In this document: in pieces, positions 47,157 through 53,769 of the stretch
Layout of the letters: the number at the start of each line of letters is the position of its first letter
Numbering within the stretch: the stretch's first letter is position 1
NCBI RefSeq assembly: GCF_014698965.1
Contig: NZ_JACXAE010000072.1
Location: 1-64,000, forward strand
DNA from: Iningainema tapete BLCC-T55
Lineage (GTDB): Bacteria > Cyanobacteriota > Cyanobacteriia > Cyanobacteriales > Nostocaceae
Length of the DNA: 64,000 bases
Reading direction: 5' to 3'
Notes under the pieces: generated by a model
What the model was told of the DNA's origin: nothing
What the model saw: the letters and a program-made list of their open reading frames with translations, nothing else
The model's database searches: none
Translations under genes and position numbers: made by a program

Positions 47157-47189
47157 AGAAACCCGGTTTCTTGAAGAAACCGGGTTTCT
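47157..47189. repeat. perfect palindrome AGAAACCCGGTTTC
   Basis: A 14-bp perfect stem (AGAAACCCGGTTTC / GAAACCGGGTTTCT) with loop TTGAA, a common repeat in cyanobacterial intergenic DNA. A degenerate relative lies at 52322-52365. It sits between the membrane protein gene and the Y RNA promoter. Confidence 0.8.
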
Positions 47190-47241
47190 CCTCGCTTAAA
47201 TACCCTTAACTGAAGCAACCAAAAAATTTTTCTCAACCTAC

Positions 47242-47270
47242 TTGACACTTGGTAATACATATACTACATT
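47242..47270 (+). promoter_or_regulatory. predicted sigma-70-type promoter of the tRNA-like genes
   Basis: A perfect -35 box TTGACA (47242-47247), 17-base spacer, and a TACATT -10 box (47265-47270). Transcription would begin around 47277, about 18 bases before the first tRNA-like RNA. No promoter of similar quality is seen between the two RNA genes or before the Ro gene, so co-transcription is likely. Confidence 0.55.
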
Positions 47271-47294
47271 AATAATACAAGCTACAAATTCCTG

Positions 47295-47416
47295 TGGTGG
47301 GTAGCTCAGTGGTAGAGCGCTTAAACATCCTTGTTCAACCCTTGCCTGCAAAGGACGAAGAATGAGGGTTATCGATTTGGGATCGAGAGGTCGCGGGTTC
47401 AAATCCCGCCCCACTA
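47295..47416 (+). ncRNA. YrlA-like Y RNA / tRNA mimic 1, tRNA-Pro(UGG)-like cloverleaf with 51-nt insert
   Basis: Acceptor TGGTGGG/CCCACTA (7 bp), TA linker, D arm GCTC-AGTGGTA-GAGC, and T arm GCGGG-TTCAAAT-CCCGC are canonical. The anticodon arm is CTCGA-TTTGGGA-TCGAG (anticodon TGG), but its 5' strand is split after CT (47320-47321) by a 51-nt insert at 47322-47372. The insert has a small hairpin AACA-TCCT-TGTT and a second stem-loop AACCCTTG ... TGAGGGTT capped by CCT-GCAA-AGG followed by ACGAAG. The segment GACGAAG resembles the Ro-binding motif I recall for bacterial Y RNAs (GNCGAANG-type). CCA is not encoded. Position upstream of a Ro60 gene supports a Y RNA identity. Confidence 0.75.
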
Positions 47417-47458
47417 CACCTATTAATTTAAATAAAATCCAAAATCCAAAATTCCATG

Positions 47459-47583
47459 TGGCGGATAGCTCAGTGGATAGAGCGCCAAAAACATCCTTGT
47501 TCACCCCTTGTCTGAAAAGACCGAAGAATGAGGGTTATCGACTCATAATCGGGAGGGTCGCGGGTTCAAATCCCGCTCCGCCA
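47459..47583 (+). ncRNA. YrlA-like Y RNA / tRNA mimic 2, CAU-anticodon cloverleaf with 52-nt insert
   Basis: Acceptor TGGCGGA/TCCGCCA, D arm GCTC-AGTGGATA-GAGC, T arm GCGGG-TTCAAAT-CCCGC identical to the first copy. The anticodon arm CCCGA-CTCATAA-TCGGG (anticodon CAT) is split after CC (47485-47486) by a 52-nt insert (47487-47538) homologous to the first. Its apical stem is TCT-GAAA-AGA, extended by a G-C pair, versus CCT-GCAA-AGG in copy 1: a compensating T-A to C-G change with conserved GNAA loop, which argues for a selected RNA structure. The motif here is ACCGAAG. It ends 38 bases before the Ro60-like start codon. CCA is not encoded. Confidence 0.75.
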
Positions 47584-47621
47584 CCTTCCATTTTTGCCTG
47601 CAAGGGCTGGGAGACAAAGCG

Positions 47622-49226
47622 ATGAATTACAAATTTTTCACCCAAAAAAACACAGCTACACCCCAAACTCAGCCTATCCCTGGACGGGAATCGGAAATGA
47701 TTCAGGGTAGATCCCAAGGTTGGATGTTCGATGCGGGTGTTTGGAAAATGCTGCGGCGCTGTTTGCTAATTGGTACGGCAAAAAGCACTTACTATGCTGG
47801 CAAACATGAATTAACAGAGGATTTTGTCACAGTTATCAGGCAGGCGATCGCCGAAAACCCAGAGCGTGTTGCCGAAGAAATCCTTTACGCTAGCGATGGA
47901 CGCTCCATCAACAACAGTGCGCCTATCCTTGCTTTAGTATTGCTGTCAATGGGTGAAGCACCTGAAGCCAAAAAGGCATTTGCGGAAATCTTCCCCCAAG
48001 TTGTGCGTACAGGTAGTCATTTCTATGAATGGCTCAGCTACACCAAGTCCATGCGGGGATTTGGTAAAGTTGTGCGCGAAGCTGGTAAAAATTGGTTTTT
48101 ACGCGAAGATGTTAAAGGTTTAGCTTACCAGTTGCTCAAGTACCAGCAACGCCATGACTTCTCAAGTCGTGACGCTTTGCGGTTGTTCCATGTCAAACCA
48201 CCAACACAAGATCATCAACAGTTGTTTGAGTGGGTAGTCAAAGGCTGGGAAGCATTGCCAGCAGAAATTCCCTCTCCTGCTCTAGCCCAAATTTGGTGGT
48301 ACGAATGGCTCAAGCGTAATCCAGAAAAAACACATGAAGCCATACTACAAGGACGCCTAACTCATGAAATGGCGGCACCTGTGGCAAAAATGGATCAAGC
48401 AGCTTGGCAGTTGCTGTTTAACGAAATGCCAATTGGTGCATTGCTGCGTAACCTGGGTTCACTAACTGAACTGGGTGTTTTAAGTGCTGATGAACCTACT
48501 AATTTGCATCGCATTGAAGCAGTTCTTAACAACAAAGATTATCTACGTAAAGGACGTATCCATCCCATTGATGTATTGAAAGCACTCAAAACTTATCAAT
48601 CTGGTGGAAAATTAGGACGTAGTCAGAAGACTTGGAATCCAGTTAGTCGGATTGTGGACATTTTAGAAAAGGCAGTTGAACTGTCTTTTGATGTGGTGGA
48701 ACCCACAGGCAAAGTGTTCATGCACGCCGTAGATGTTTCTGGTTCTATGTCTTACTGCACTGTGGAGTCAGTGGCACTGAGTTGCTGTGAAATTGCCACA
48801 ACAATGGCATTGGTAACAGCAAAGGCTGAGAAGAACTACATGATTCGCGGCTTTGCTACAGACTTCCGTGACTTAGGTATCACGAATATAGATAGTTTTA
48901 GTTCAGCTATTCGCAAAGCTAGCAACCAAAACTTTGGTGGTACAGATGCGTCTGTGGCTTACGACTGGATGATTAAGAATAAGTTCAAGGCTGATGTAGT
49001 TTGCTTTTGGACTGACAGTGAGTCATGGGCTGGGTACAAGCATCCAAGTCAAGCGCTAGCCCAATATCGGCAAAAAATTAATCCCAATGTCAAGGCAGTT
49101 TATCTCACCCTTGCACCTTACCAGATTACCTTAGTAGATCCGAAAGACCCCCTGTCTTGGGATTTAGGTGGATTCGATCCGGGAACACCCCGCATCATTC
49201 AGATGTTGGCTACAGGTGAACTGTAG
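47622..49226 (+). CDS. rsr: TROVE-domain Ro60 orthologue (Rsr)
   Basis: 534 residues. TROVE domain (HEAT-like RNA-binding ring) from about residue 15 to 350: GRESEMIQGRSQGWMFDAGV, LRRCLLIGTAKSTYYAG, LVLLSMGEAPEAKKAF, RTGSHFYEWLSYTKSMRGFG. A C-terminal von Willebrand A-like domain follows, with a MIDAS motif in MHAVDVSGSMSYC (DxSGS, about residue 370) and FGGTDASVAYDWM. In Deinococcus and Salmonella, Rsr with Y RNA controls exoribonucleases such as PNPase and helps RNA decay and stress survival. Here it is immediately behind two tRNA-like Y RNA candidates. The length and motifs are complete. Confidence 0.93.
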   Translation: MNYKFFTQKNTATPQTQPIPGRESEMIQGRSQGWMFDAGVWKMLRRCLLIGTAKSTYYAGKHELTEDFVTVIRQAIAENPERVAEEILYASDGRSINNSAPILALVLLSMGEAPEAKKAFAEIFPQVVRTGSHFYEWLSYTKSMRGFGKVVREAGKNWFLREDVKGLAYQLLKYQQRHDFSSRDALRLFHVKPPTQDHQQLFEWVVKGWEALPAEIPSPALAQIWWYEWLKRNPEKTHEAILQGRLTHEMAAPVAKMDQAAWQLLFNEMPIGALLRNLGSLTELGVLSADEPTNLHRIEAVLNNKDYLRKGRIHPIDVLKALKTYQSGGKLGRSQKTWNPVSRIVDILEKAVELSFDVVEPTGKVFMHAVDVSGSMSYCTVESVALSCCEIATTMALVTAKAEKNYMIRGFATDFRDLGITNIDSFSSAIRKASNQNFGGTDASVAYDWMIKNKFKADVVCFWTDSESWAGYKHPSQALAQYRQKINPNVKAVYLTLAPYQITLVDPKDPLSWDLGGFDPGTPRIIQMLATGEL

Positions 49227-49396: not shown

Positions 49397-50488
49397 CTAA
49401 GCTTCAAAAGTCCAAGTTTGACTACCAATCCTAATGACATTTCCCGGAGAAAGCCAGACAGGTTGATTAGCTACAAGCTTTTGTCCACCTAAAAAAGTGC
49501 CATTGGAACTGCCTACATCAATTAACTGGTAACGTGTACCTTCAGTATCATGTACCTGATTAATTCTGGCATGATAACGCGAACTCAAGGCATCGTCGAG
49601 GATGAGGGTGTTAGTGGGTTCGCGTCCAATTGTAAAGGGGCTAGCTGACAAAATTGCGATCGCTCCTGTGGAATGGTTCACCAACCGTGCAATCCCAGAG
49701 TCGCCTGAATTCGGATCTAATACTGTTGGCGCAAGTGTTCGGCGATCGCGTTGAGGTGTTCCTTCAATGACAACGTTAGTAGCGTCTTCGTTAGCGCCAA
49801 GCACAGGGTTGGGGACATTAGGGTTACTACCTGACACAATATTGACTTGTTGCACAGGTTGTGGTAATATATCTGGTCTTCCTGCTTGAGCAATCTGTAC
49901 CTTGAGTGCTGCTTCGTATTCGGCTTGTTGTCGAGCGCTCAAACCTTCAACTTGACGAATTATCCCAGAAGTTTGGGGAAAGCTGATGTCATTCACCCGT
50001 ACATCTTCTAAAGCAAAGCCAATAGAATAAGAAACATCTGTATTATTAAGAATGTATTGCCGGACTAACGCTCTACCTTGATTTGTCAACTGTTCGACAC
50101 GTAGCTGACTAACTACCGCCCCTAGAGTGTCTTTAACAGCACTTGTCAGGGCATTAAGAGGATCGGATAATTCCAAAGCAACTCGCTTGGCATCCACTAC
50201 CTGATACATTACGTTTAGGGAAACATTAATCAGAAATTGGTCTTTACATAAAAAATCCCCATGAGAAACAATTTCTACATGGCGAATCTTCGTATCTACC
50301 AGTACTAGTTGACATTGCTCCAGTAGGGGAAGGGCAAAGCTGAAATGACGCCCAGGTTCCCATCTACGCACCAGACGACCATTTTTGATTAATAAACCAG
50401 TATAACCTGCCTCAATAAAATCCATGCTCCACCCCGCCCAGCGATCCGGGGTTAACGTTTGGATCAAAGGAGGAGAATTGGTGGACAT
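49397..50488 (-). CDS. SPFH/band-7 domain fused to FHA domain
   Basis: 363 residues. N-terminal SPFH-like region (about 20-200): MDFIEAGYTGLLIKNGRLVR, ARRWEPGRHFSFALPLLEQC-like residues, then DVRVNDISFPQTSGIIRQVE. A low-complexity linker (about 205-270) leads to a C-terminal FHA domain with the phosphothreonine-binding signature FTIGREPTNTLILDDALSSR-YHARI and DVGSSNGTFLGGQKL. No membrane segment is seen. The pairing suggests a scaffold that binds a Thr-phosphorylated partner, perhaps a Hanks kinase substrate. Divergent from the GR-like gene; convergent with rsr. Confidence 0.82.
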   Translation of the reverse strand: MSTNSPPLIQTLTPDRWAGWSMDFIEAGYTGLLIKNGRLVRRWEPGRHFSFALPLLEQCQLVLVDTKIRHVEIVSHGDFLCKDQFLINVSLNVMYQVVDAKRVALELSDPLNALTSAVKDTLGAVVSQLRVEQLTNQGRALVRQYILNNTDVSYSIGFALEDVRVNDISFPQTSGIIRQVEGLSARQQAEYEAALKVQIAQAGRPDILPQPVQQVNIVSGSNPNVPNPVLGANEDATNVVIEGTPQRDRRTLAPTVLDPNSGDSGIARLVNHSTGAIAILSASPFTIGREPTNTLILDDALSSRYHARINQVHDTEGTRYQLIDVGSSNGTFLGGQKLVANQPVWLSPGNVIRIGSQTWTFEA

Positions 50489-50925: not shown

Positions 50926-52272
50926 ATGGCATTCGATTACGACCTGTTTGTCATTGGTGCTGGTCCTGGGGGACTAGCAGCAGCTAAAAAAGCAGCCAGC
51001 TACGGCGCTCGTGTAGCGATCGCAGAACAAGAAGCCCTGGGTGGTACTTGTGTAAATCGCGGTTGCACACCGAAAAAATTCATCGTCCATGCTGCTGACG
51101 TTGCCCTGCAAGATCAACTAGCGCACAGCTACGGTTGGAGTGACTGCAAAAGGCACTTTGACTGGACGAAATTTATCAAGTCCGTACATCAAGAAATTGA
51201 AAACATTCACGGTTCCTATCTCGATCAGTTGCAAAAAGCTGGTGTTGAGTTAATTCCCAGTAAAGCTACTTTTGTCGATCCGCATACCATTGAGATACAT
51301 GGACGCAAAGTTACAGCTGATAAAATTCTCATTGCTGTGGGTGGACACCCGCTCAAACCTGAAATCCCAGGTATAGAATTCTCCATCTCTTCCCGGCAGA
51401 TGTTTGACCTACCCTACCTGCCCAAACGCTTGGCAATTATTGGCGGTGGTTACATTGGCGTAGAATTTTCTAGCATGATGAACGCTTTGGGCTGTGAAGT
51501 CACGCTGATTGATCGAGATGAAATGATTTTATCAGGATTTGATGATGACATCCGCTCATGTGTTCAAGAAGGTTTGAGCAAACGGGGAGTTAAGTTTATT
51601 GGCAACAGTACGGCTAAAGAAATCAAATTCTCAGAAGAGTGTTTACTGTTGACCATTTCTGACAAATCGGAAAAAATCATTACAGCAGATACTATCCTCG
51701 TTGCTACAGGACGCGCCCCTAACACAAAAAATTTGGGTTTGGAAAAAGTTGGAGTATCCCTGGGCGAAAAAGGCGAAATCAAAGTAGATGAATACAGTCG
51801 TACAACCCAGGAAAATATTTTTGCTGTGGGTGATTGCACCAACCGAATGCAATTGACACCAGTTGCTAAGGCAGAAGCCATTGCTTTTGCCGATACAGTT
51901 TTTGGCAAAAAGCAGCAAAAAGTTAGTTATGATTATGTGCCATCTGCTGTTTTTGCCCGTCCAGAAGCGGCTAGTGTAGGAATGTCAGAGGCAAAAGCAA
52001 AAGAAAAATTTGGTGAATCTGTAAAATGCTACCGCGATCGCTTCCAACCTTTGTTGTTGCAGCTCACCCAAGATGAGCAACAAGCTACGATTAAGTTAGT
52101 GGTTGAAGGTGAATCTGAACGTGTTTTAGGTGCTCACATGGTGGGTGAAAATGCAGCGGATATTATTCAAAGTCTTGCTGTTGCGATCCGCAAGGGCATT
52201 ACCAAGCAGGATCTAGATGAAACGCTTGGCATTCATCCCACTTCAGGAGAAGAATTCCATTTGTTTGAGTAA
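50926..52272 (+). CDS. glutathione-reductase-like FAD/NAD(P) disulfide oxidoreductase, paralogue 1
   Basis: 448 residues. FAD-binding DLFVIGAGPGGLAAAKKAAS, redox-active disulfide GGTCVNRGCTPKKF, NAD(P)-binding LAIIGGGYIGVEFSSMMNAL, second FAD motif NIFAVGDCTNRMQLTPVA, and C-terminal His-Glu site IHPTSGEEF. It is about as similar to the next gene as a recent-to-moderate tandem duplicate would be. After the second glycine motif it reads VTLIDRDEMIL, with Asp where NADH-using members have an acid, whereas its neighbour reads VTQILRKDLIL. It may therefore use NADH, or another disulfide substrate, instead of GSSG. Confidence 0.85.
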   Translation: MAFDYDLFVIGAGPGGLAAAKKAASYGARVAIAEQEALGGTCVNRGCTPKKFIVHAADVALQDQLAHSYGWSDCKRHFDWTKFIKSVHQEIENIHGSYLDQLQKAGVELIPSKATFVDPHTIEIHGRKVTADKILIAVGGHPLKPEIPGIEFSISSRQMFDLPYLPKRLAIIGGGYIGVEFSSMMNALGCEVTLIDRDEMILSGFDDDIRSCVQEGLSKRGVKFIGNSTAKEIKFSEECLLLTISDKSEKIITADTILVATGRAPNTKNLGLEKVGVSLGEKGEIKVDEYSRTTQENIFAVGDCTNRMQLTPVAKAEAIAFADTVFGKKQQKVSYDYVPSAVFARPEAASVGMSEAKAKEKFGESVKCYRDRFQPLLLQLTQDEQQATIKLVVEGESERVLGAHMVGENAADIIQSLAVAIRKGITKQDLDETLGIHPTSGEEFHLFE

Positions 52273-52321
52273 GCAAGACCTTGATTAATTGTACTTGAAT
52301 ACTCCTGTATTACCACATGCT

Positions 52322-52365
52322 AGAAACTTGGTTTCTTGATGGTATTTAGGAGAAACCGGGTTTCT
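52322..52365. repeat. degenerate copy of the AGAAACC palindrome
   Basis: AGAAACTTGGTTTCT and AGAAACCGGGTTTCT, 14 bases apart, located between the two reductase genes; related to 47157-47189. Confidence 0.6.
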
Positions 52366-52395
52366 TTTTTCTTGTTTGAGAAGGAATTGGAATTT

Positions 52396-53769
52396 ATGAC
52401 TTATGATTACGACTTGTTTGTTATCGGTGCTGGTTCTGGAGGATTGGCGGCTTCCAAACGTGCGGCAAGTTATGGGGCAAAAGTAGCGATCGCTGAACAA
52501 GATTTAGTCGGTGGCACTTGTGTGATTCGCGGCTGCGTTCCCAAAAAACTGATGGTTTATGGCTCTCATTTTCCCGCATTGTTTCATGATGCGGCGGGCT
52601 ATGGCTGGAAGGTTGGTAACGCCGAATTGGATTGGGAGCATTTCATTACAGTTATTGATAAGGAAGTTCGGCGTCTTTCTGGGCTACATATTAACTTTCT
52701 CGAAAAAGCTGGAGTAGAACTAATTCCCACTCGCGCTACTCTGGTAGATCCACATACTGTAGAGGTAGATGGACGCAAAGTTACAGCCGACAAAATTTTG
52801 ATTGCTGTTGGGGGACGTCCGATTAAGCCAGATATTCCTGGCATGGAATATGCTATCACTTCTAACGAAATGTTTCACCTCAAAGAGCAACCAAAGCATA
52901 TCGCGATTATTGGTGCTGGCTATATTGGTACGGAATTTGCCTGTATCATGCGCGGTTTGGGTAGTGAGGTAACTCAGATTCTACGTAAAGATCTGATTTT
53001 GAAAGGTTTTGATGACGATATCCGTACCGAAATTCAAGATGGCATGATCAACCACGGTATCCGGATAATTCAAAATCAACTGGTGACAGCAGTTGAGCGT
53101 GTACCTGAGGGGTTAAAGCTTACTTTGTCAAAAGATGAAGAACCAGTAATTGCCGATGTATTTTTGGTAGCGACTGGTCGAGCACCGTATGTAGACGGAT
53201 TGGGTTTGGAAAATGCCGGTGTTGATTTAATCGCTAGTTCAGTAGAAGGGCTAGGGTATAGTATTACGCCAGCGATCGCTGTCAATGAATATAGTCAAAC
53301 TTCTCAACCAAATATCTACGCTGTAGGTGATGTTACGGATAGAATGAATTTGACTCCTGTAGCGATTGGTGAAGGTCGTGCTTTTGCTGATAGTGAATTC
53401 GGGAATAACCGTCGTGTATTAAGTCACGAAAATGTACCCACAGCCGTGTTTTCTACTCCTGAAGCTTCTACAGTAGGTTTAACTGAAGCCCAAGCCAGAG
53501 AAAAATTGGGTGAGGATGTGAAAATCTATCGCACCCGGTTCCGTCCTTTGTTCCACAGTTTGACTGGTGCTCCAGAAAAGACCATGATGAAGTTGGTGGT
53601 GGATGCTAAAACAGACAAGGTTTTGGGCGCTCACATGGTGGGAGAAAGTGCGGCGGAAATTATTCAAGGTGTGGCGATCGCAGTTAATATGGGCGCTACC
53701 AAAAAAGATTTCGACGCCACTGTTGGTGTTCATCCTTCAGCTGCAGAAGAATTTGTCACCATGCGCTAG
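52396..53769 (+). CDS. gor: glutathione-disulfide reductase
   Basis: 457 residues from ATG 52396; a longer frame only adds translated repeat. FAD motif DLFVIGAGSGGLAASKRAAS, disulfide GGTCVIRGCVPKKLMVYGS (the form typical of cyanobacterial GR), NADPH domain IAIIGAGYIGTEFACIMRGL then VTQILRKDLIL with basic residues, NIYAVGDVTDRMNLTPVA, C-terminal active-site VHPSAAEEFVTMR. It reduces GSSG to GSH with NADPH. Tandem with a paralogue (124-base spacer), probably co-transcribed. Confidence 0.92.
   Translation: MTYDYDLFVIGAGSGGLAASKRAASYGAKVAIAEQDLVGGTCVIRGCVPKKLMVYGSHFPALFHDAAGYGWKVGNAELDWEHFITVIDKEVRRLSGLHINFLEKAGVELIPTRATLVDPHTVEVDGRKVTADKILIAVGGRPIKPDIPGMEYAITSNEMFHLKEQPKHIAIIGAGYIGTEFACIMRGLGSEVTQILRKDLILKGFDDDIRTEIQDGMINHGIRIIQNQLVTAVERVPEGLKLTLSKDEEPVIADVFLVATGRAPYVDGLGLENAGVDLIASSVEGLGYSITPAIAVNEYSQTSQPNIYAVGDVTDRMNLTPVAIGEGRAFADSEFGNNRRVLSHENVPTAVFSTPEASTVGLTEAQAREKLGEDVKIYRTRFRPLFHSLTGAPEKTMMKLVVDAKTDKVLGAHMVGESAAEIIQGVAIAVNMGATKKDFDATVGVHPSAAEEFVTMR

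Follow-up and report, generated by a model that had tools for sequence, protein, structure and literature searches.

Tandem tRNA-like RNAs beside a cyanobacterial Ro60/Rsr gene: probable Y RNAs in normal tRNA order that keep an anticodon arm

The closest described relatives of the RNAs considered here are the bacterial YrlA RNAs, of which the Salmonella example (PDB 6CU1) is described, in the excerpted text of PMC11472068, as circularly permuted relative to tRNA. According to excerpts of PMC8394870, YrlA binds Rsr through its basal stem, and the tRNA-like domain is modified by DusA and TruB and said to interact with PNPase; an excerpt of PMC7790460 raises the possibility that the YrlA tRNA domain acts as a competitive inhibitor of an anticodon nuclease. 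The vertebrate Ro60 site is described as a 7-bp helix in which a bulged C lies across from a 3-nt bulge (excerpt of PMC4726728). For TROVE genes, excerpted reports describe a dramatic rise in transcripts when Chlorogloeopsis fritschii PCC 9212 was given erythromycin (PMC6424891) and a TROVE gene that rose together with RtcB in coculture (PMC11423583).

In the window, by which we mean the whole 64,000-nucleotide stretch of Iningainema tapete BLCC-T55 DNA that was analysed, a gene at 47622..49226 (+) encodes a 534-residue protein that carries Pfam TROVE (59.7 bits) and vWA_Ro60 (120.1 bits) domains and resembles the solved structures of Rsr (PDB 2nvo, E 6.5e-70) and Ro60 (1yvp, E 1.1e-64), a combination that marks it as Ro60/Rsr. 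Upstream lie two tRNA-like cloverleaves with a Y-module insert between nt 28 and 29, the second of which ends 37 nt before the ro start. RNA1 runs from G(-1) to C73 over 47294..47417 (+), with a core of 47295-47416 inside the G(-1):C73 pair (47294 and 47417); its 51-nt insert was placed by the parser at 47322..47372 (+), and its anticodon, UGG, lies in the loop TTTGGGA (47376..47382, +) on a stem formed by 47320-47321 plus 47373-47375 with 47383-47387. RNA2 runs from G(-1) to C73 over 47458..47584 (+), with a core of 47459-47583 inside its own G(-1):C73 pair (47458 and 47584), a 52-nt insert at 47487..47538 (+) and anticodon CAU in the loop CTCATAA (47542..47548, +), the stem being 47485-47486 plus 47539-47541 with 47549-47553. 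Both RNAs have U1:A72 together with the eighth acceptor pair G-1:C73, and neither encodes CCA, C73 being followed by ACC in RNA1 and CTT in RNA2. A first-pass annotation of this DNA had described two tandem tRNA-like RNAs with an insert at an identical position and a full cloverleaf only once that insert is removed. Its coordinates proved right within 1-2 bases, and the conditional cloverleaf was borne out: neither intact RNA was called by ARAGORN or by the Rfam tRNA model at its cut-off, whereas with the insert cut out and CCA added ARAGORN called RNA1 as tRNA-Pro(tgg) and RNA2 as tRNA-Met(cat), each with an anticodon stem of five pairs out of five. Folding energy of the whole RNAs gives weak support (z = -1.2 and -2.4) and the minimum-energy folds of both lack the 5-bp anticodon stem as drawn, so the case for these RNAs is a comparative one. 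Upstream of RNA1, a consensus scan finds a promoter-like site with 10 of 12 matches, TTGACA-17-TACATT (47242..47270, +); with two such sites in the region, where shuffled sequence has 0.9 on average, the signal is weak. By eye, a near-perfect inverted repeat, AGAAACCCGGTTTCTTGAAGAAACCGGGTTTCT, is also seen upstream of both RNAs, at 47157-47192.

The Y module itself was modelled as R1, a covariance model built from 39 modules of equal length, longer modules being left out (alignment A2, 40 picks less the false pick L059:3422). In RNA1 the module spans 47328..47374 (+) and comprises a main stem (47328-47336 with 47360-47368), a small stem (47344-47346 with 47353-47355, +) whose first pair is a G-A mismatch, and the segment UUAUCG (47369-47374); it scores 71.8 bits, a value that is not independent, this module (L081) being one of the 39 rows that build R1. 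The RNA2 module spans 47494..47540 (+; 75.1 bits), with its main stem at 47494-47502 and 47526-47534, its small stem at 47510-47512 and 47519-47521 (+) and UUAUCG at 47535-47540. Across the insert, TCCTTGTTC pairs with GAATGAGGG over 9 bp, with 94.6% of alignment cells paired and both-side changes at three pairs among the 39 modules; registers slid along this main stem give at most 60% pairing. When the 9-bp stem is taken together with the small stem that caps it, 94.0% of cells are paired compared with 89.8% in shuffled alignments, both-side changes occur in 17 cells compared with 3.0, and the covariation score is 0.200 compared with 0.124. Thirteen of the 47 columns are invariant, the final six, UUAUCG, included. 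An earlier MAFFT alignment (A1, 60 picks less the false picks L043:7840 and L011:1778) had the main stem in the wrong register and was replaced by A2. The homology of the two inserts, as first proposed, thus extends to one structured module whose stems covary and which recurs beside Ro across the window's class, and the compensating T-A to C-G change noted in the small stem is present and covaries in the family, where the variable pair is CG in 31 of the 39 modules, UA in 4, UG in 2 and something else in 2. The hairpin AACA-TCCT-TGTT that the inserts were also said to share fared less well: it is not conserved, its variable pair being formed in 53% of 205 copies. The CGAAG..UUAUC of the module may resemble the vertebrate Ro60 site.

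R1 matches 53 of the 291 genomes of the window's class and TROVE 56 of them (28 and 29 of 131, respectively, when counted by genus). Both occur in 52 genomes, the module alone in one, TROVE alone in four and neither in 234, a co-occurrence with a Fisher p of 1.5e-51, which overstates independence, the genomes being related. Of the 81 module hits, 79 share a contig with a TROVE match, at a median distance of 1095 bp and a maximum of 2451 bp (measured to one TROVE position per genome, or two for two genomes); the remaining two are the G027 hit and one G227 hit on another contig. The exceptions fit this pattern: of the four genomes with TROVE and no R1 match, three (G301, G169 and G184) have variant copies beside TROVE and in the fourth (G028) the TROVE match is an 83-residue fragment, while G027, with a module and no TROVE, gives a weak, A+T-rich match next to a gene that by eye resembles the one flanking the RNAs in the window. 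The corresponding stretches, L192 (G027) and L191 (G028), look like losses of the system, with a decayed-looking module and a TROVE fragment, respectively. At the level of whole RNAs, blastn matches to the window pair are found at 78 of 80 Ro loci from named genomes (the best 80 of 169 by Ro similarity), with only a 30-nt piece at L051; L018 and L068 gave no blastn match, and a motif scan gives three candidates in L068. The first-pass annotation had proposed a covariance-model search and had named the lack of any insert homologue next to other cyanobacterial Ro genes as a reason to doubt a Y RNA reading; the search tied the module to TROVE in 52 of 53 matched genomes, and homologues proved to be the rule at these loci. 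Genome G137 has further RNA matches spread over several contigs, copies are also present in the laboratory strain Picosynechococcus sp. PCC 7002, where three of them precede SYNPCC7002_RS15900 on pAQ7 and R1 matches the locus, and a blastn comparison of the window RNAs with plasmids gave no match.

Requiring an acceptor, a D arm and a T arm of every copy, our parser recovered 295 distinct copies among the 80 loci, present at 74 of them with 1 to 10 copies each, counts that are mostly lower bounds because copies identical between loci were counted once. By the pairing rule, the module is forward with a class-I-size middle in 213 copies, forward with a larger middle in 45 (class-II-like bodies and some parsing errors) and reversed in 37, where its far end points toward the tRNA core and an anticodon-like hairpin forms the cap. 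In some class-II copies the module replaces the anticodon loop altogether (L001:3506, folded), and an RNA downstream of ro (L030:5648-5766) has an acceptor and a T arm but carries a Y stem at the D-arm position; RNAs like the latter were seen at similar places downstream of ro in other loci. G-1:C73 is present in 225 of the 295 copies and U1:A72 in 249. A few copies pass the Rfam tRNA cut-off of 29 bits (L062:3528-3650, 44.5 bits; L172:1938-2057, 43.0 bits; L197:2690-2796, 47.1 bits), and public genomes may list such copies as tRNAs.

The anticodon arm is maintained well beyond the window. After one insert cut, a perfect 5-bp stem with a 7-nt loop results in 171 of 244 class-I-size copies, compared with 7.6% of tail-shuffled ones; a further 30 have four pairs, 31 three, 11 two and one none, and many of these 73 non-perfect copies are of the reversed type or have 6-nt loops. 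Within the 171, U33 is found in 163 and R37 in 165, and 26 different anticodons occur; ARAGORN called all 171 after insert removal and none before, in a set chosen for its perfect stem. Among 95 distinct rows selected for five pairs out of five, both-side changes were counted in 50 at 31:39, 39 at 28:42 and 25 at 29:41, and G-1:C73, a pair not used in the selection, is formed in 88% compared with 63% after shuffling. The anticodon triplet behaves differently from its surroundings. For the Ro-proximal copy of 45 loci (copies with five pairs out of five, from several subfamilies, with the D loop, variable region and insert unscored), entropy is highest of the positions scored at nt 34, 35 and 36 (1.85, 1.82 and 1.80 bits) and zero at nt 33, G-1, U1, A72 and C73; many other body positions fall at 0-0.4 bits and a number at ~0.5-1.4. 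Since pooled figures mix paralogs, anticodon change was compared with change at ro fourfold sites inside stem-defined subfamilies of at least five copies. In the 17-copy subfamily the respective values were 0.33 and 0.16 for the closest pairs, 0.38 and 0.25 for the middle ones and 0.22 and 0.34 for the farthest; in the 12-copy subfamily they were about equal (0.41 and 0.49), and in the 7-copy subfamily the anticodon AGG is fixed, with 0 throughout. These subfamily comparisons do not show diversifying selection on the anticodon; being faster in close pairs, slower in far ones and equal or fixed elsewhere, the triplet is therefore often free to change.

To look beyond cyanobacteria, we compared RNA1 and RNA2 by blastn with 50,697 phage records and found matches in eight: seven are Gordonia records, which represent five phages and match at 91-93% over 45 nt, and the eighth is a tRNA-Pro of a Streptomyces phage. 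The match was mapped in one of these, Gordonia phage Boopy, where it falls (L198:5237-5281, by arithmetic) on a permuted RNA; this RNA lies ~1.1 kb past a Ro gene, from which tRNA and tmRNA genes separate it. It reads Y strand, UUAUCG, CGA AUUGGGA UCG AG and T arm (UUAUCG and CGA sharing CG), and after the T arm come an acceptor closed by UUCG, the D arm, CU, AAAAA and a Y strand; apart from the place of its ends, its order matches that of window RNA1, which makes it a circular permutation, and the Y-stem letters differ. The arm of phage Sixama, CU|CGA AUUGGGA UCGAG, compares closely with CU|CGA UUUGGGA UCGAG in RNA1, and Boopy's reads as Sixama's by eye, the permuted-order parser having chosen another register there. 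Applied to 14 Ro loci (13 non-cyanobacterial and that of PCC 7002), this parser gave 15 candidates at 12 loci and none in the PCC 7002 or Rhizobium locus. Twelve of the 15 have an anticodon arm of five pairs out of five, where ~2.3 were expected from shuffles, and nine of these twelve are cut exactly at 28|29; among the twelve, U33 is present in 11 and the anticodons vary. By eye, a Y-type strand ending in GGTTA precedes the anticodon hairpin in 12 of the 15, and the cyanobacterial module resembles the Y-type strands of the actinophage RNAs; R1 gave no match at six non-cyanobacterial Ro loci. The order of these RNAs and their nearness to Ro are the basis for regarding them as Y RNAs. The permuted actinophage RNAs keep the anticodon arm, which is therefore common to both topologies and not unique to cyanobacteria; normal tRNA order was seen only in cyanobacteria in this survey. 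Separately, L196:8140-8500, part of an uncultured phage record of 68.8 kb, reads by eye as permuted tRNA-like RNAs that have an anticodon hairpin as well as GGGUUAUCG, and an IF3 gene lies ~1.6 kb away; TROVE was not found in that record, and an unpermuted reading was rejected because the acceptor order is permuted. Another viral pattern match, L195, looks like chance, and the second of the two viral patterns gave no match.

In the 5' leader of ro, a hairpin, GCCTGCAAGGGC, and then TGGGAG, a likely ribosome-binding site, occupy 47596..47613 (+). This hairpin (UUUGCC..GGC, then GGGAG), similar in look to the Y module's small one, overlaps the likely ribosome-binding site. The strict pattern TTTGCC..GGC is found in at least 51 of 68 distinct stretches taken as leaders, 51 being a lower bound as the 68 include loci with another offset, and in 45 of 70 loci a distance of 36-38 nt separates the end of the Ro-proximal copy from the start of ro. 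Judged from sequence, autoregulation by Rsr through the leader hairpin is possible. Downstream of ro, the window encodes an SPFH (Band 7) and FHA protein at 49397-50488 and, at 50926-53769, two adjacent and similar open reading frames that are glutathione reductase-like by eye; PADLOC, run on three window proteins, gave no match. In Chlorogloeopsis, erythromycin is described as inducing an SPFH gene as well as a TROVE gene (excerpt of PMC6424891).

Several other accounts of the locus have to be weighed. The functional RNA could be a permuted YrlA that reaches from the 3' half of RNA1 into the 5' half of RNA2, the outer halves being incidental, as the Rfam YrlA model (RF02553) does align end to end over 47365-47517. 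This alignment, however, scores 28.8 bits, far under the cut-off of 69, and weak matches (E up to 0.01) appear in 49 of the 291 class genomes but also in 8 of 14 controls, E. coli included, so the window's match counts for little; at the cut-off, YrlA was found in none of the 291 genomes, and the model was dropped as a cyanobacterial detector. The Rfam comparison proposed in the first-pass annotation yields a sub-threshold YrlA alignment and, with the tRNA model, nothing at the cut-off. The YrlA cut-off in any case does not separate topologies, because the permuted actinophage RNAs that were scanned also fall below it (52.1, 42.2, 36.7, 36.1, 32.9 and 30.0 bits). The window RNAs have the tRNA-like D, T and acceptor arms of YrlA and not its permuted order, their acceptor halves lying at both predicted ends and the Y module being internal with its own loop. 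The 3' acceptor half of RNA1 pairs at 5 of 7 positions with the 5' acceptor half of RNA2 and each pairs at 7 of 7 with its own partner, and loci such as L005, L034 and L077 show a single place, at which no span could form; we regard a spanning YrlA as scarcely credible. A cis-acting role, in which tRNA-like elements and hairpin would form an Rsr-bound autoregulatory 5' UTR and not free RNAs, draws on the recurrent spacing to ro and on the Y-hairpin look-alike over the probable ribosome-binding site, but sits poorly with up to 10 parsed copies per locus, with copies downstream of ro and with the scattered matches of G137. As a full account we consider it improbable; a cis-acting leader and a Y RNA are nevertheless compatible, and each can hold alongside the other.

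The two genes could also be read as tRNA genes, each interrupted at 28|29 by a small bacterial intron whose splicing would yield ordinary tRNA-Pro(UGG) and tRNA-Met/Ile(CAU), and removing the insert does give canonical tRNAs, with the ARAGORN calls described above for the perfect-stem set. An intron would hardly be expected to track TROVE, to replace the anticodon loop or to stand reversed in neighbouring copies, and splicing hardly explains the permuted relatives near Ro in actinophages. Canonical tRNAs have no large insert and an anticodon fixed within orthologs; here the insert is large, and the anticodon often differs between Ro-proximal copies, being varied in two subfamilies and fixed in a third. 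The host, with a genome of 9.5 Mb, moreover already has two tRNA-Pro(UGG) and two tRNA-Met(CAU) genes among at least 54 tRNA genes found by ARAGORN (38 stretches, with 150 of 526 candidates scored, so that absences from this survey carry no meaning). Splicing to ordinary tRNAs is thus very unlikely in our view. Alternatively, the molecules might be decoding tRNAs with a Ro-binding arm, charged for example by HisRS, for which G-1:C73 is an identity element, and used in translation. The canonical U33, R37 and cloverleaf, the frequency of G-1:C73 and the retention of AGG in one subfamily of seven all accord with this. Against it, the 26 anticodons coexist with G-1, U1, A72 and C73 that are constant in all 45 Ro-proximal copies, a ~50-nt branch sits in the anticodon stem, and the window RNAs lack an encoded CCA. 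Given an anticodon that is often free to vary and one unusual acceptor end common to most copies, we do not expect these RNAs to decode and hold such a role to be distinctly unlikely.

Our preferred reading, to which we assign a probability of about 0.86 on comparative grounds, is that the window RNAs are unpermuted Y RNAs, predicted partners of the adjacent Ro60/Rsr, in which the Y module occupies the anticodon stem of a tRNA mimic. Tandem tRNA-mimic Y RNAs that keep an anticodon arm were what the first-pass annotation had suggested, and the suggestion is strengthened by TROVE in 52 of 53 module genomes, by adjacency to ro, by module conservation and by permuted actinophage relatives with the same arm. 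The hairpin inserted in the anticodon stem is probably Ro-binding. In the mechanism we envisage, the RNAs would be co-transcribed with ro from a promoter before RNA1 and excised at their acceptor ends by tRNA-processing enzymes. Rsr would then bind the module through its stem and two conserved segments, CGA(A/C)G and UUAUCG, a step proposed because the module co-occurs with TROVE and is conserved. The bound RNA could show a tRNA-shaped effector domain, anticodon hairpin included, to tRNA-recognising proteins, acting as a tether, gate or decoy. More tentatively, and with doubt outweighing belief, the anticodon loop might keep tRNA geometry while its triplet changes freely so that the RNAs serve as bait or sensors for anticodon-binding or anticodon-cleaving enzymes, and the unpermuted RNAs might be ancestral, with permuted YrlA arising from tandem arrays, an idea suggested by the stretch between neighbouring inserts, which already equals a permuted Y RNA.

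Finding what is probably one Y RNA design both in normal tRNA order, in cyanobacteria, and in permuted order with an anticodon arm, near Ro in actinophages, makes the link between tRNA and Y RNA concrete. Among the literature matches listed, we recognised no description of cyanobacterial or unpermuted Y RNAs, and the novelty of unpermuted, anticodon-bearing Y RNAs is claimed provisionally; Chen et al. (2014) reportedly identified probable Y RNAs in over 250 species of bacteria and phages, and some of the present finding may therefore be in print. An anticodon loop that is kept while its triplet is often free bears on the published idea of competition with an anticodon nuclease (excerpt of PMC7790460). 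In light of the YrlA, anticodon-nuclease, erythromycin and RtcB-coculture observations cited at the outset, a role in translation or tRNA stress is plausible by analogy. The matches listed gave no account of the origin of the permuted Y RNA order.

To our knowledge, vertebrate Y RNAs have no tRNA domain, and we know of no Ro link for tmRNA or viral tRNA-like structures. As described in excerpts of PMC8394870 and PMC11472068, tmRNA and viral tRNA-like structures are also tRNA mimics with an extra domain, one that differs from the Y module. YrlA comes nearer: its RF02553 consensus has tRNA-like D, T and acceptor arms with a Y stem at the anticodon position, and it shares with the window RNAs an Rsr partner, predicted in our case. 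The consensus is, however, permuted, with ends in the Y stem, an acceptor closed by a loop and no anticodon hairpin, whereas the window RNAs follow tRNA order, retain an anticodon arm and score under the RF02553 cut-off. The permuted RNAs near Ro in actinophages and in the actinobacterium Nonomuraea match the window RNAs in their Y-type strand, anticodon arm and varied anticodons, and differ from them in having their ends in the Y stem, in closing the acceptor by UUCG or other loops and in the letters of the Y stem.
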